Positions 7,246-28,502 of a stretch of DNA of 33,070 nt are shown in pieces. The notes beneath the pieces are model-generated. The model was not told where the DNA came from. It was given only the letters and a program-made list of their open reading frames with translations, and made no database searches. A program made the translations under genes and the position numbers. Every line of letters begins with the position of its first letter. The stretch's first letter is position 1. The stretch comes from Ilumatobacteraceae bacterium. GTDB lineage: Bacteria; Actinomycetota; Acidimicrobiia; Acidimicrobiales; Ilumatobacteraceae. Location: contig JANRCO010000030.1 in the NCBI GenBank assembly GCA_030726975.1, positions 1 through 33,070 on the forward strand. Direction: 5' to 3'.

Positions 7246-8196
7246 CTAGGCGCGTGGCTCGGTGTTTCTTGCAAGCGGGAATGCGCCCTTGCCAACATAA
7301 ACACCAGGTTGACGTGTGCCGTATTTCTCAATGACCAATTGTGCTTCTGCGAGTGTGGCGCGCGTGGCACGGTTGGGTTGTGGGCGCCGACGCTGAGCCC
7401 AGCCCACCACGCGCCGTGGAAGTTCGGGCACAGCAATGCGCACGAAGTCACCCTTCAACCAGCCGGGAATTGCACTTGCGGGAACAATGGCCGCACCGAA
7501 TCCTTCAAAGGCGAGTGAAGCAAGAAGTCGCACGCCGTCGATTTCGGCTTGAGCCTGTAGTGCTACCCCTTTGTTCGCAGCTGCGCGGTCGACAATGCGG
7601 CGAAAGGCAGTACTACGCGGTGGAAGCAACAACGGGTGGGTCGCAAGTTCTGTGAGTGAAATGGTGTCGTACGAGGCAAGTGCGTGCTTGGAGTGGGCGA
7701 GGAGCAACATGTCTTCGGCAAAGAGCGGTTGTGTGATGAGTTCAGGGTCCTCTACTGGCAAGTGAACAATGGCTGCGTCGACGGTGCCATTGGCAAGGCG
7801 CGGCAAGAGCGACGATGTACTGCCCTCGTGCACAATGGTGCGAATGCCAGGATGAGAGTGCGAGAGCGAGGTGAGCAGGCGTGGCATGAACCACCGAGCC
7901 GTGGTGCCGAGTACTCCGAGGCGGGTTTCGCCCGTAATCGCCTCGTCACGGGCCTTGATGTCGGAGGTGATGTCGTCCATCTCGTGCACGATGCGCCGGG
8001 CGCGCTCGGCAACTGCGAGACCTTCATCGGTGAGTTGGCCGCTATGGCGATCGATGAGGGTGGTACCTAAGAGCTTTTCAAGCCGCGAAATATGGGCAGA
8101 AACGTTGGATTGCACCGTTCCGAGCGACTTTGCCGCCGCGGAAAACGAGCCGTGGTCGGCAATGGCGAGAAGGCTGGTGAGTTGGCGAAGTTCCAT
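7246..8196 (-). CDS. LysR family transcriptional regulator
   Basis: MELRQLTSLLAIADHGSFSAAAKSLGTVQSNVSAHISRLEKLLGTTLIDRH (LysR N-terminal HTH). Start at ATG 8196; 13 bp upstream of the carboxyltransferase gene on the same strand. Confidence 0.93.
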   Translation of the reverse strand: MELRQLTSLLAIADHGSFSAAAKSLGTVQSNVSAHISRLEKLLGTTLIDRHSGQLTDEGLAVAERARRIVHEMDDITSDIKARDEAITGETRLGVLGTTARWFMPRLLTSLSHSHPGIRTIVHEGSTSSLLPRLANGTVDAAIVHLPVEDPELITQPLFAEDMLLLAHSKHALASYDTISLTELATHPLLLPPRSTAFRRIVDRAAANKGVALQAQAEIDGVRLLASLAFEGFGAAIVPASAIPGWLKGDFVRIAVPELPRRVVGWAQRRRPQPNRATRATLAEAQLVIEKYGTRQPGVYVGKGAFPLARNTEPRA

Positions 8197-8204
8197 CACA
8201 AAAA

Positions 8205-8221
8205 AAGATACCAAGTATCTT
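8205..8221. promoter_or_regulatory. perfect palindrome AAGATAC-CAA-GTATCTT upstream of lysR; candidate LysR box
   Basis: 7-bp inverted arms with a 3-nt spacer, 9 bp upstream of the lysR ATG. The half-site recurs inverted as GGCAAGATA at 8253-8261. Confidence 0.5.
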
Positions 8222-8252
8222 GCCGTTCGCCTTGAGTAATACCCAGAAATGA

Positions 8253-8261
8253 GGCAAGATA
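8253..8261. promoter_or_regulatory. additional inverted half-site GGCAAGATA (partner TATCTTGCC at 8216-8224)
   Basis: Exact 9-bp inverted repeat separated by 28 nt, next to the C5-loop hairpin array. Confidence 0.4.
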
Positions 8262-8269
8262 TATCCAAC

Positions 8270-8379
8270 AAGCGAATCGGACTTCCCCCAAGACCGATTC
8301 GTAGAGAACCCATCGATGGTCCCCCACCATCGGGTTCATCGGTTGAGAGGCCTCACGTCCCCCACGTGAGGCCTCTCCC
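8270..8379 (+). ncRNA. candidate structured RNA: three consecutive hairpins, each with a CCCCC loop (6C-like sRNA candidate; strand not certain)
   Basis: H1 8273-8301 CGAATCGG-a-CTT-CCCCC-AAG-a-CCGATTCG; H2 8306-8337 GAACCC-(atc)-GATGGT-CCCCC-ACCATC-GGGTTC; H3 8345-8377 GAGAGGCCTCACGT-CCCCC-ACGTGAGGCCTCTC. Upstream TTGAGT (8232-8237) and AAGATATAT (8256-8264) could be a plus-strand promoter. Confidence 0.5.
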
Positions 8380-8394
8380 ATATTCCGGGAGAGG
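8372..8394 (-). terminator. hairpin immediately after the aconitase stop (candidate terminator, no clear U-tract); overlaps the H3 right arm
   Basis: CCTCTCCC-ATATTCC-GGGAGAGG: 8-bp perfect stem, 7-nt loop, 2 bp beyond the aconitase stop codon. Confidence 0.4.
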
Positions 8395-8396
8395 TG

Positions 8397-10658
8397 CTAC
8401 TTCTTGGCGAGGTTCTGTCGCACGATGTTGAGTGCAGAACCTGCTTTAAACCATTCCACTTGCTCGGGGCTAAAGGTGTGCTTTGCCTCGAAGTCAACAA
8501 TGGAACCATCGGCCTTTGTGATGCGACATGTGATGGGCTTGTCGGGAACTGGTGGAAGACCCATCACGCTGATGCGATCGTCTTCGCCGATGAGGTCGTA
8601 CGTTGCAGGGTCAGAGAACGTGAGTGGAACAAGACCTTGCTTCTTCAAGTTTGTTTCGTGAATGCGAGCAAACGATCGAGCGAAAATAACAACACCACCA
8701 CGGAAGCGTGGTTCCATTGCAGCGTGTTCACGCGATGAACCTTCACCGTAGTTTTGATCGCCAATTGCACACCATGAAATGCCAGCTTGCGAATAACGCT
8801 TTGCAATTTCTGGATAGAGGCGAGTACCACCATCTGTGATGTCTTTGCCTTCACCAGTTGCGCCAGTGAATGCGTTGATAGCACCAATGAACAAGTTGCC
8901 AGAGATGTTCTCTAAGTGACCACGATAGGTGAGCCATTTTCCTGCTGCAGAAATATGGTCGGTGGTGCACTTGCCTTTTGCTTTCATGAGCACAGGAAGA
9001 TCGATGTAGTCAGAACCATCCCATGCAGTGAAAGGTTCGAGCAACTGCAAACGATCGGAAGTTGGGCTCACTGCAACAGTGATTTTGCTGCCATCTGCTG
9101 GTGGTTGTGTGAAGGTGTCAACACCTGGGTCATAACCATTTGCGGGAAGCACTTCACCAACAGGAGCAGAGAGCAATACTTCTGTGCCGTCTGGCGCAGT
9201 GATGGTGTCGACCGTTGGGTCGAAGTCGAGGCGACCTGCCAATGCAATAGCAATAACGGTGTCGGGGCTAGTAACAAACGACAAGGTGTTTGCTGAACCA
9301 TCGTTGCGCTTCGGGAAGTTGCGGTTGAATGAGTTCACAATGCTGTTGGGTTTTGCCGTCACATCGGCGTGACGCTCCCACTGACCAATGCAAGGACCAC
9401 AGGCGTTGGCAAGAACAGTTGCGCCAATTGCTTCGAGGTCGGCCATGAGGCCATCGCGTTCAATAGTGGCGCGAATTTGTTCTGACCCCGGTGAGATGAG
9501 CAACTCTGTTTTTGAGCGCAACCCGCGTGCGGCTGCTTGGCGCGCAACCGATGCTGCACGTGTGATGTCTTCGTATGAAGAGTTGGTGCAGCTACCAATG
9601 AGTGCTGCAGAAACTTCAAGTGGCCAGTTGTTTTCGCGAGCAGCATCACCGACGCCGGCACCAACCTTGTGCGCACGGTCTGGTGAGTGCGGGCCGTTAA
9701 TGAGTGGTTTCAATAAGTTGAGATCAATTTCAATGAGTTGGTCGTATTGCGCACCATCGTCGGGGCGAAGTTCGCTTGCAACTTTGTCGGCTGCAGCGGC
9801 AATGTCGGCGCGACCTGTTGCTTGCAAATACTTTGCCATCTGTTGGTCGTAAGAAAATACTGAACACGTTGCACCAATTTCTGCGCCCATGTTGCAAATA
9901 GTTGCTTTGCCCGTTGCGGAAATGGAGTCGGCTCCGTCGCCGAAATATTCAACAATTGCACCTGTTCCACCTTCAACGGTGAGCACGCGTGCAACTTCCA
10001 AAATGACGTCTTTCGGACTCGACCAGCCAGAAAGTGATCCGGTGAGTTTGATGCCAATGACTTTTGGCCAGCGCACGTTGAAAGGAAAGCCGGTCATGAC
10101 GTCAACGGCGTCGGCGCCACCAACACCAATTGCCACCATGCCCAAACCACCAGCGTTTGGTGTGTGGCTGTCGGTGCCAATCATCATTCCGCCAGGGAAT
10201 GCGTAGTTCTCAAGAACAACTTGGTGAATAATGCCGCTGCCTGGGCCCCAAAAACCAATGCCGAACTTTGCACAAACGGAACGCAAGAAGTCGTACACCT
10301 CTTTGTTGGTATCGATGGCAACACCCATGTCGATGCGTGCACCGGTCTTGGCCATAATGAGGTGATCGCAGTGCACGGTTGATGGCACCAATGTTTCAGG
10401 AAGTCCAGCGGTCATGAACTGCAAGAGCGCCATTTGGGCCGTTGCGTCTTGCATAGCCACGCGGTCGGGGTGGAAGTCGGCATAGCTGCGGCCGCGCTCC
10501 ATTTCCTGATTTGCTGGGTCGGCAAGGTGGTTAATGAGAATTTTCTCGGTGAGCGACAATGGGCGACCAAGGCGCTTGCGGCCAAGGGCGGCGCGCTCAA
10601 CAAGGGTGCCATAGACGGCATTCACGAGTGAGATGGGGGTTCCTGCTGACACGGCCAT
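8397..10658 (-). CDS. acn: aconitate hydratase, mitochondrial type
   Basis: PSTVHCDHLI, GTDSHTPNAGGLGMVAIGVGGADAVDVM, IGSCTNSSYEDITRAA, ANACGPCIGQW, GKCTTDHISAAGKWLTYRGHLENIS, SSREHAAMEPR. Start placed at ATG 10658. Confidence 0.96.
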   Translation of the reverse strand: MAVSAGTPISLVNAVYGTLVERAALGRKRLGRPLSLTEKILINHLADPANQEMERGRSYADFHPDRVAMQDATAQMALLQFMTAGLPETLVPSTVHCDHLIMAKTGARIDMGVAIDTNKEVYDFLRSVCAKFGIGFWGPGSGIIHQVVLENYAFPGGMMIGTDSHTPNAGGLGMVAIGVGGADAVDVMTGFPFNVRWPKVIGIKLTGSLSGWSSPKDVILEVARVLTVEGGTGAIVEYFGDGADSISATGKATICNMGAEIGATCSVFSYDQQMAKYLQATGRADIAAAADKVASELRPDDGAQYDQLIEIDLNLLKPLINGPHSPDRAHKVGAGVGDAARENNWPLEVSAALIGSCTNSSYEDITRAASVARQAAARGLRSKTELLISPGSEQIRATIERDGLMADLEAIGATVLANACGPCIGQWERHADVTAKPNSIVNSFNRNFPKRNDGSANTLSFVTSPDTVIAIALAGRLDFDPTVDTITAPDGTEVLLSAPVGEVLPANGYDPGVDTFTQPPADGSKITVAVSPTSDRLQLLEPFTAWDGSDYIDLPVLMKAKGKCTTDHISAAGKWLTYRGHLENISGNLFIGAINAFTGATGEGKDITDGGTRLYPEIAKRYSQAGISWCAIGDQNYGEGSSREHAAMEPRFRGGVVIFARSFARIHETNLKKQGLVPLTFSDPATYDLIGEDDRISVMGLPPVPDKPITCRITKADGSIVDFEAKHTFSPEQVEWFKAGSALNIVRQNLAKK

Positions 10659-10737
10659 TGGGGGCTCTTTTCTCTCGAGCAAGCCGGGTTCCCCGCGGAA
10701 CTTGCAAATGTGTGCTGTGTAGACAACTCTAATACAA

Positions 10738-11469
10738 GTGAGGACCATTCGCTATCAACAGATTGCCGAGAACCTGCGTGAGCGTCTCGTCGCGGGCAAT
10801 TTCGTGGCTGGGCGTATGTTGCCGAGCGAGTCGGAGTTGTCGGCTGAGTTCTCTGCAAGTCGAGTCACGGTGCGTCGTGCACTTGAAGTGTTGCGCGATG
10901 AAGGCCTCGTGAGCGCTCGACAAGGTTTCGGATGGTTTGTTCCTGGCGATACGGTGCGTCAGCCGCTGGGAAAATTGGCAACCATCGAAGAACAAATGCG
11001 GGCGAGTGGAGTGACTTCGCAGCGACGCATTGTGGAGTTTGGTTTTGAATCGGCGCCGAAGAAAATTGCCGATGTGTTGGGAACAACCCAAGTGCTCCGT
11101 GTGTTGCGCGTGAACCTTGCCGACGGCGAACCCTTTGCCATTGTGACGGTGTGGTGTTCTGCAGAAGTGGGCCAGCACTTGTCGCGTCGCGATGTTGAGC
11201 AGTCGCCGTTTTATGAACTGCTTGATGTTCCACTCAGTGGAGCTACGCAAACTATTGGGGCCGATGCGGCTACTCCAGACGATGCAACGATGTTGCATAT
11301 TCCTGTGGGATCACCTGTCTTGCGCTGTGAGCGGGTCACGTCCGACACCACTGGACGCCCAGTGTTGGTATCGCATCACGTGTTTCCCGCTCACCGCACA
11401 GAGTTTGTTGTTGACTTGCCGTACACCGAGCCATCGATTGCGCCCAGTGGTTTAAGGCTCGTTGACTAA
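10738..11469 (+). CDS. GntR family (HutC/UTRA-type) transcriptional regulator
   Basis: RYQQIAENLRERLVAGNFVAGRMLPSESELSAEFSASRVTVRRALEVLRDEGLVSARQGFGWFV (GntR wHTH) followed by a UTRA-like domain. GTG start. Confidence 0.9.
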   Translation: MRTIRYQQIAENLRERLVAGNFVAGRMLPSESELSAEFSASRVTVRRALEVLRDEGLVSARQGFGWFVPGDTVRQPLGKLATIEEQMRASGVTSQRRIVEFGFESAPKKIADVLGTTQVLRVLRVNLADGEPFAIVTVWCSAEVGQHLSRRDVEQSPFYELLDVPLSGATQTIGADAATPDDATMLHIPVGSPVLRCERVTSDTTGRPVLVSHHVFPAHRTEFVVDLPYTEPSIAPSGLRLVD

Positions 11470-26847: not shown

Positions 26848-27456
26848 ATGGCCGAAATCCGTAAAAAACATGCTCAACCCACGCGGGAGCGCATTCTCGA
26901 TGCGGCCCTTGACCTCTTTGGTTCGGGTGGGGTCGACGCCACCAGCTTGGATGACATTGCCCGCGCTGTGGGGGTGGCCAAGCAGACCGTGCTCTACTGG
27001 TTCGTTACCAAAGAAGAATTGGCTGTTGCAGTGATGCAGCGCGTTGCCGATGAACTGGTGTTGGAAATTGGTGCCGCTATTCGCTCGGCCCCACATGGTT
27101 TTGCACGTATTGAGGCAACAGTGACCGCGGTCTTTCGCCCAGCCATTCGCCGGCCTGCATTACTTGGTCTCATTCGCGAGCTCAACCGCTTGCCGCCAGC
27201 ACTCAGTGAAGCACTCATCGACAAGGTGGCTCCACTCATCAACATGGCTGCAATCTATTTGGAAAAAGAAATGGATGAAGGGCGCCTACGTCGTGCCGAC
27301 CCCCATTTGTTGTTGGCCTTTGTGTATTCCACTGTGGTGGGTGTTGCTACAGAGCCGGTGGCGCTTCGTGCTGTGGGGTGGCAACCAACAACGGTGGGTC
27401 TGCGTGCATTGCGTCGTGAGCTGCTCGAATTTTTGCGAGCAGCACTCACGCCTTAG
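26848..27456 (+). CDS. TetR/AcrR family transcriptional regulator
   Basis: PTRERILDAALDLFGSGGVDATSLDDIARAVGVAKQTVLYWFVTKEELAVAVM (TetR_N HTH). Confidence 0.93.
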   Translation: MAEIRKKHAQPTRERILDAALDLFGSGGVDATSLDDIARAVGVAKQTVLYWFVTKEELAVAVMQRVADELVLEIGAAIRSAPHGFARIEATVTAVFRPAIRRPALLGLIRELNRLPPALSEALIDKVAPLINMAAIYLEKEMDEGRLRRADPHLLLAFVYSTVVGVATEPVALRAVGWQPTTVGLRALRRELLEFLRAALTP

Positions 27457-28502
27457 TGGCTGGTGTGTCGGCGACGACGAGCGTGTCGTTCGAAGGCCAG
27501 CTCAATGAGGCGGTCGATGAGGTCGCTGTAAGAGATACCTGTTTGTTCCCACAACTTTGGGTACATCGAAATCGGTGTGAACCCGGGAATCGTGTTGACC
27601 TCGTTGCATAAGAAGCGTGAGGTTGATTCTTCAAAGAAGAAATCGACTCGGGCGAGGCCGTCGCAACGGAGCGCTTTGTAAATGTTGAGGGCTTTTTCGC
27701 GTACTTCTTGCGATTGCTCTGCGGTTAACAGCGCTGGAATATGCAACGTGGCACTGTTGTTGACGTATTTGTCTTTATAGTCGTAGAACTCGCCAGCAGG
27801 AACAATTTCTCCAGGCACCGAGGCAATGGGATCCATATTTCCTAGAACCGCAATTTCAATTTCTCTTGCGGCAATGAATTCTTCGCAGATTGCCCATTCG
27901 TCGTATTGAAAGGCCAGGTGCAGTGCAGTCATGAAATCTTCGCGACGAGCAACCTTGCTCACACCTACAGACGAGCCCATGTTGGCGGGTTTGACGAAAA
28001 TAGGGTATCCGAGTTGGTCGATGGCGGCATCAATATCGGCTGGTGAACATTCACCGTCACGCAGTGCAATAAAAGCAGGCTGCTCAATGTTGTGGTGCTG
28101 CAATATTTGTTTGCTCACCACTTTGTCCATGCACACTGCGCTCGATAAAACGCCAGACCCTACGTAAGCGATATTGCCAAGTTCGAGCATGCCTTGCACG
28201 GTTCCATCTTCGCCGAGGGGTCCGTGGAGCAAAGGCAAAACAACGCATTGTGTAGAGAGAGACGTAATGGTTTGCAAATTTGTTGGCGTACCGGTGGTTG
28301 ATAAACGACCTGTGGCCAACTCATCACGTGTGGGGGTGACGAGATTCCAATTGCCTGCTCGGCTAATACCAATCGTGGTGATGTCGTATTTCTCGGTATT
28401 GGCTGCCGCAATGACATGAGCTGCTGTAACGCAACTGACGTCGTGCTCTGCGGACTCGCCACCAAAGAGAACAATAAGAGGAATGCGGGAAGAAGCGTTC
28501 AT
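27453..28502 (-). CDS. ddl: D-alanine--D-alanine ligase
   Basis: IVLFGGESAEHDVSCVTA, LPLLHGPLGEDGTVQGMLELGNIAYVGSGVLSSAVCMDK, FLCNEVNTIPGFTPISMYPKLWEQTGISY. Confidence 0.97.
   Translation of the reverse strand: MNASSRIPLIVLFGGESAEHDVSCVTAAHVIAAANTEKYDITTIGISRAGNWNLVTPTRDELATGRLSTTGTPTNLQTITSLSTQCVVLPLLHGPLGEDGTVQGMLELGNIAYVGSGVLSSAVCMDKVVSKQILQHHNIEQPAFIALRDGECSPADIDAAIDQLGYPIFVKPANMGSSVGVSKVARREDFMTALHLAFQYDEWAICEEFIAAREIEIAVLGNMDPIASVPGEIVPAGEFYDYKDKYVNNSATLHIPALLTAEQSQEVREKALNIYKALRCDGLARVDFFFEESTSRFLCNEVNTIPGFTPISMYPKLWEQTGISYSDLIDRLIELAFERHARRRRHTSH

Follow-up and report, generated by a model that had tools for sequence, protein, structure and literature searches.

A three-hairpin small RNA with C-rich loops beside a LysR-type gene in Ilumatobacteraceae, a likely divergent homologue of 6C RNA

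The gap between a LysR-type regulator gene and an aconitase gene in the window (the whole stretch of 33,070 nucleotides that was analysed, from contig JANRCO010000030.1 of an Ilumatobacteraceae bacterium) carries three consecutive hairpins, each with a CCCCC loop. That this array is a structured, single-copy small RNA (sRNA), read from the plus strand and selected for its C-loops, is close to certain, and it is likely to be a divergent homologue of the 6C RNA (Rfam RF01066). Taken as a whole, we consider it probable that the element is a divergent, trans-acting sRNA of the 6C type, with three C-loops that pair with G-rich ribosome-binding sites and with expression switched by LysR. The features concerned are as follows.

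7249 to 8196, minus strand: LysR-type regulator gene (PF00126/PF03466), divergent from the sRNA and adjoining it in nearly all loci of the family
8207 to 8219, no strand assigned: palindrome GATACCAAGTATC (GATAN5TATC), likely LysR operator; GATn7ATC occurs in 43/45 loci
8232 to 8237, plus strand: sRNA promoter, -35 box TTGAGT; promoter of a type (TTG-N17/18-CATACT/CAAGAT) conserved family-wide
8255 to 8260, plus strand: -10 box CAAGAT, recognised by position and conservation
8266 to 8381, plus strand: three-hairpin 6C-type small RNA, model extent (144.4 bits with model R1, 122.7 bits with model R2)
8272 to 8302, plus strand: hairpin 1, CCCCC loop at 8285-8289, compensatory changes at every aligned pair
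8303 to 8381, plus strand: sub-threshold match to RF01066 (6C) over hairpins 2 and 3, at 33.8 bits (E = 0.011) against a gathering score of 47, covering model positions 1-75 of 75
8306 to 8337, plus strand: hairpin 2, CCCCC loop at 8321-8325, bulge of 3 nt at 8312-8314
8345 to 8377, plus strand: hairpin 3, perfect stem of 14 bp, CCCCC loop at 8359-8363, conserved UCCCNU tail on its 3' side
8397 to 10748, minus strand: aconitase gene (TIGR01340), convergent with the sRNA and outside the sRNA unit
27453 to 28502, minus strand: D-alanine-D-alanine ligase gene (Ddl), candidate target, with CGGGGGAAG before its start

The first-pass annotation had described three CCCCC-loop hairpins at 8273-8377, and its stem lengths, coordinates and spacers (4 and 7 nt) were all reproduced; hairpin 1 gained one more pair, a G.U (8272.8302). 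The minimum-energy structure of 8265-8385 on the plus strand contained all three hairpins, with a free energy of -59.8 kcal/mol against -29.4 +/- 3.2 kcal/mol for dinucleotide shuffles (z = -9.5), and none of 200 shuffles matched it. The modelled transcript probably spans about 8267 to 8385, with hairpin 3 probably doubling as its terminator hairpin. A terminator scan of the array found a T-run at none of the three hairpins. The sole terminator-like site lay at 8371-8395 on the plus strand, where a CCTCTCCC-ATATTCC-GGGAGAGG hairpin is possible; it is incompatible with stem 3 and absent from some congeners. The reading as paired intrinsic terminators, whether of tandem or of convergent genes, was rejected, since the hairpins have no T-run and their loop sequences are constrained; a REP-like element, or a duplicated or tandem DNA repeat, was likewise rejected, because the stems are mutually different and the site is single in the genome.

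Two covariance models were used, R1 being built from five window-clade sequences and R2 being the family-wide model of the three-hairpin RNA. R1 matched 103 of 151 Ilumatobacteraceae genomes, nearly always with one strong, full-model match in each. The LysR gene was present in 13/13 genomes of the genus, and the three-hairpin element adjoined it in each; the genomes with a LysR match belonged to Ilumatobacteraceae/Acidimicrobiales; most had been assembled from freshwater metagenomes, and several bore the name acIV. MAFFT misplaced hairpins 1 and 2 when applied to two branches of the genus, and the covariance model was therefore used instead. In the alignment of 44 distinct family sequences, which was fitted to that model, 96.9% of paired cells were kept (71% when shuffled, at most 51% when slid), and the covariation score was 0.631 (0.166 when shuffled, at most 0.071 when slid). 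An independent MAFFT alignment, nearly gap-free in hairpin 3, showed the same compensatory changes there. Runs of at least four C were found in loop 1 (44/44), loop 2 (44/44) and loop 3 (41/44); where present, they ranged from 4 to 7 and were mostly of five, and many relatives carried a UUCCCCCAA loop rather than CCCCC. Compensatory stem changes around invariant C-loops had been named beforehand as what relatives should show, and the 44 sequences agreed, with changes on both sides in 34 of 38 pairs and near-invariant C-loops. The proposal that selection acts on the loop, rather than that a repeat was duplicated, was likewise upheld, as the C runs persist while the stems diverge freely, and only one genomic copy exists. 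Weak R2 matches (L195-L199, L323-L325), mostly a C-rich or plain terminal hairpin, were left out of the membership.

At the gathering threshold, Rfam yielded no match anywhere in the window. When the suggested kinship with RF01066 was checked directly, the full length of the model matched hairpins 2 and 3, at a score below the gathering score. In eight congeners the RF01066 scores for this locus were about 30-35 bits. The reverse search, with R2 against canonical 6C loci, gave 37.6 bits (E 1.6e-5) for L042, 36.9 for L043 and 32.3 for L037, and homology between the three-hairpin family and canonical 6C was thus detectable both ways. The RF01066 cut-off is a strict one, because among the control genomes the 6C RNA of C. 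glutamicum, which has been confirmed by Northern blot (PMC4046766), fell below it, and most Streptomyces-like genomes reached only 43-48 bits. Since the cut-off was missed, the RNA is not to be filed under RF01066 as defined, and it lies outside the strict 6C definition of Rfam cut-off, six Cs and two hairpins.

The element resembles the known 6C RNAs (B11/6C of M. tuberculosis, cgb_03605 of Corynebacterium glutamicum) in being actinobacterial, about 100 nt long and adjacent to a HAD gene, and in combining C-run hairpins with a long terminal stem and a UCCC(N)U motif, of which UCCC was invariant in 36 sequences. The HAD-IB neighbour that characterises 6C (the rv3660c-rv3661 region in M. tuberculosis) was found in most family members, but not in the window clade. 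Where 6C is described by two adjacent hairpins with about six C, three adjacent C-loop hairpins with mostly five C were found here; the two loops of canonical 6C have six to eight. The three-hairpin RNA differs further in scoring below the Rfam cut-off, in belonging to the class Acidimicrobiia, in the divergent LysR gene and promoter palindrome of its loci, and in reading toward HAD, whereas canonical 6C reads away from it.

Canonical 6C loci of Mycobacterium- and Streptomyces-like genomes (L033-L044) had a hairpin of varying sequence just 5' of the Rfam model, its loop mostly non-C as judged by eye, and the Rfam model may therefore omit a third stem. In one of these, L042 from the actinomycete G257, which passes RF01066 at 66.9 bits, this 5' hairpin bore a C6 loop. 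Because of this extra hairpin, we infer a scaffold of three hairpins common to both groups, with two or three of them bearing C-loops. L042 is like the window's RNA in having three consecutive C-run hairpins and an adjacent HAD gene, but it has at least six Cs per loop, a divergent HAD gene and no detected LysR neighbour. The C-loops occupied the last two hairpins in mycobacteria, the first two in f16/f17 relatives (L015, L200) and all three in most Ilumatobacteraceae.

C-rich-loop sRNAs occur in unrelated bacteria. The trans-acting sX13 RNA of Xanthomonas, from another phylum, for instance, reportedly has C-rich loops, with pairing proposed at G-rich mRNA sites, and on both counts its likeness to the three-hairpin RNA is by analogy alone. 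An unrelated C-loop sRNA that became 6C-like by convergence, with the same mode of action and a separate descent, would fit the sub-threshold RF01066 score, the differing stem sequences and a HAD orientation unlike that of mycobacteria. We nevertheless think it unlikely, given that the profile scores with canonical 6C run both ways, that the HAD neighbourhood and the UCCCNU tail after the last stem are common to both, that an Actinomycetia 6C gene with a high score (L042) also has a C-looped 5' hairpin, and that the intermediates L015 and L200 exist in other families of the order. Among the possibilities raised in the first-pass annotation, a 6C relative with three loops emerged as the best-supported reading, through the two-way scores, the HAD neighbourhood, and compensatory stems with near-invariant C-loops. 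An incomplete search of the literature found none linking 6C RNA with Acidimicrobiia or describing three hairpins.

The gap between the LysR start (8196, minus strand) and the aconitase stop (8397, minus strand) comprises 8197-8396. An alternative, longer LysR reading frame starting at 8313 would overlap the array; orthologues support the start at 8196 (MELRQL...) as the likely one. The LysR protein reached no NCBIfam equivalog cut-off. A HAD-IB hydrolase gene (TIGR01490) adjoined the RNA in most family members, while in the window clade its place was occupied by aconitase; HAD was lost from the site both in this clade and in some small-genome lineages, and aconitase adjoined the RNA in several. 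In Mycobacterium- and Streptomyces-like genomes a homologous HAD gene likewise adjoined canonical 6C, but divergently; the HAD gene is thus not oriented in the same way to the RNA in Ilumatobacteraceae and in Actinomycetia. The array might accordingly be read as a cis-acting leader of a downstream HAD-IB/PlsC gene, left over in the window clade, as most relatives have a same-strand HAD gene directly downstream and Rfam classes RF01066 as Cis-reg. This is very unlikely: the RNA was fully conserved even where HAD has left the site, both in small-genome lineages and in the window clade, the terminal stem and pyrimidine tail suggest that transcription stops there, and canonical 6C is an independent RNA of about 93-100 nt, divergent from HAD (PMC8628891, PMC4046766).

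Substitutions within the stems also indicated the strand. G-U cells outnumbered A-C cells by 90 to 20 overall, and by 40 to 1 in hairpin 3; since G-U becomes an A-C mismatch on the opposite strand, it is the plus-strand RNA that has been selected. The minus-strand alternative offered earlier, an aconitase 3' UTR with G5 loops, was contradicted by this asymmetry, which fits only the plus strand, and by relatives, in most of which aconitase is not the neighbour. A minus-strand aconitase 3' element, or a lysR-acn intergenic cluster of bidirectional terminators, is hardly credible, for although stable hairpins do lie in a gene gap and the minus strand also folds stably (z -6.6), most relatives have no minus-strand gene end there and a HAD neighbour co-directional with the RNA, so that synteny already contradicts it, as do the G-U/A-C asymmetry, the invariant loops that termination does not need, and the absence of a T-run terminator on the minus strand.

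Upstream of the 6C-type RNA, TTGAGT-N17-CAAGAT (8232-8260) corresponded to TTGaaa-N17-CATACT across the family, and transcription is predicted to start at about 8266-8268; a sigma-70 consensus scan did not detect this promoter. The distance from the start of GATn7ATC to the start of the -35 TTG was 25 nt in the family wherever both were recognised, and 24 nt in the non-family locus L015. The distances from palindrome to RNA and from palindrome to LysR varied, while that to the -35 box stayed fixed. Given this fixed geometry, and since nearly all loci have LysR divergent from the RNA, LysR likely binds the palindrome and controls both its own gene and the sRNA. The data show a conserved structure, its strand, the constraint on the loops, the synteny, the palindrome geometry and the G5 enrichment; in the best explanation of these patterns, transcription, LysR binding and pairing are presumed. 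An sRNA of about 115-120 nt would be made on the plus strand from the promoter at 8232-8260, ending at hairpin 3, and LysR, bound to GATAN5TATC before the sRNA promoter and its own gene, would most likely turn the RNA on or off. The CCCCC loop of each hairpin would pair with GGGGG(AA) at ribosome-binding sites and so alter translation of the mRNA, most likely by blocking it, although the sign of regulation is presumed; many of the affected mRNAs would serve oxidative and lipid-type catabolism.

Candidate target sites were sought in partial genomes, with starts taken from a simple codon-usage gene caller that gave no bonus for ribosome-binding sites. In the window genome (G000), GGGGG occurred 26 times at -15 to -1 of 580 starts in 687 kb, where 3.7 were expected from flanking bins; this was a 7.0-fold enrichment (P 5e-14), beside 4.4 for GGAGG, 5.0 for AGGAG and 0.67 for CCCCC. 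A distant congener (G011) showed 3.0-fold enrichment of GGGGG before starts. In the one control, an Acidimicrobiales genome with no 6C match (G263), the values were 0.97 for GGGGG and 10.6-fold for AGGAG; direct comparison with this control gave modest differences (P 0.04 each). Co-occurrence of G5 before homologous genes of the two congeners exceeded chance (OR 5.8, P 1.6e-4), these pairs being non-independent; among RBH pairs only, sharing was not significant (P 0.13). Pattern counts in 61 genomes were mixed: the ratio of GGGGGAN{2,7}ATG to its reversed control was 4.1 in the family, against 2.5 elsewhere in the order (P 5e-5), while the ratio of G-pattern to C-pattern was 1.23 and 1.26 respectively (P 0.70). 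Predicted loop-target duplexes had energies of -13 to -17 kcal/mol, against -4 to -7 for an ordinary GGAG site. The candidates included P450s, acyl-CoA ligases, ecdysteroid-kinase-like proteins, carotenoid oxygenases, dehydrogenases, a thiolase and the window's Ddl. Oxidative or lipid-type catabolism accounted for 15 of 20 candidates and 5 of 19 random genes (P 0.004), in a grouping that was the author's own and not blind. Pairing of the C-loops with G-rich start sites is therefore a supported but not settled prediction, and G5 could be just a lineage-specific variant of the Shine-Dalgarno sequence.

Many actinobacteria conserve 6C, but little is known about what induces it or about its target code; a review describes the inducing factors of B11/6C as undefined (PMC8628891). 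In the Ilumatobacteraceae clade the regulator gene is fixed, a palindrome keeps its position relative to the RNA promoter, a third C-loop is present, and the G-rich signature at start sites would make targets predictable. The comparison also suggests that the Rfam 6C model omits the 5' hairpin and misses a whole actinobacterial class. More tentatively, and at somewhat less than even chances, the family may possess a dedicated switch, made of LysR and the sRNA, by which a three-armed 6C RNA governs a large post-transcriptional regulon through GGGGG(AA) ribosome-binding sites, mainly in oxidative/lipid-type catabolism; lineages would then differ in how many C-loops the common three-hairpin scaffold bears, and where.

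Some individual loci departed from the common arrangement. In five family loci, several of them from small genomes (L092, L096, L097, L108, L192), the stem of hairpin 3 was kept and its C-loop lost, loops 1 and 2 keeping their C; in L193, also of the family, loop 2 was the C-loop lost. One genome from another family of the order (G051) had two separate 6C-like loci, L013 and L015; L015 is flanked by a LysR gene and a HAD gene, and its hairpins 1 and 2 have C6 loops, while its terminal stem is plain. The HAD-IB hydrolase beside the RNA at L071:216-1457 bore a C-terminal PlsC-like acyltransferase domain. Finally, public metagenome bins labelled Bifidobacterium breve, Ferrithrix thermotolerans or Acidobacteria (L113, L115, L145, L118) contained the Ilumatobacteraceae locus described here, and these labels look wrong.
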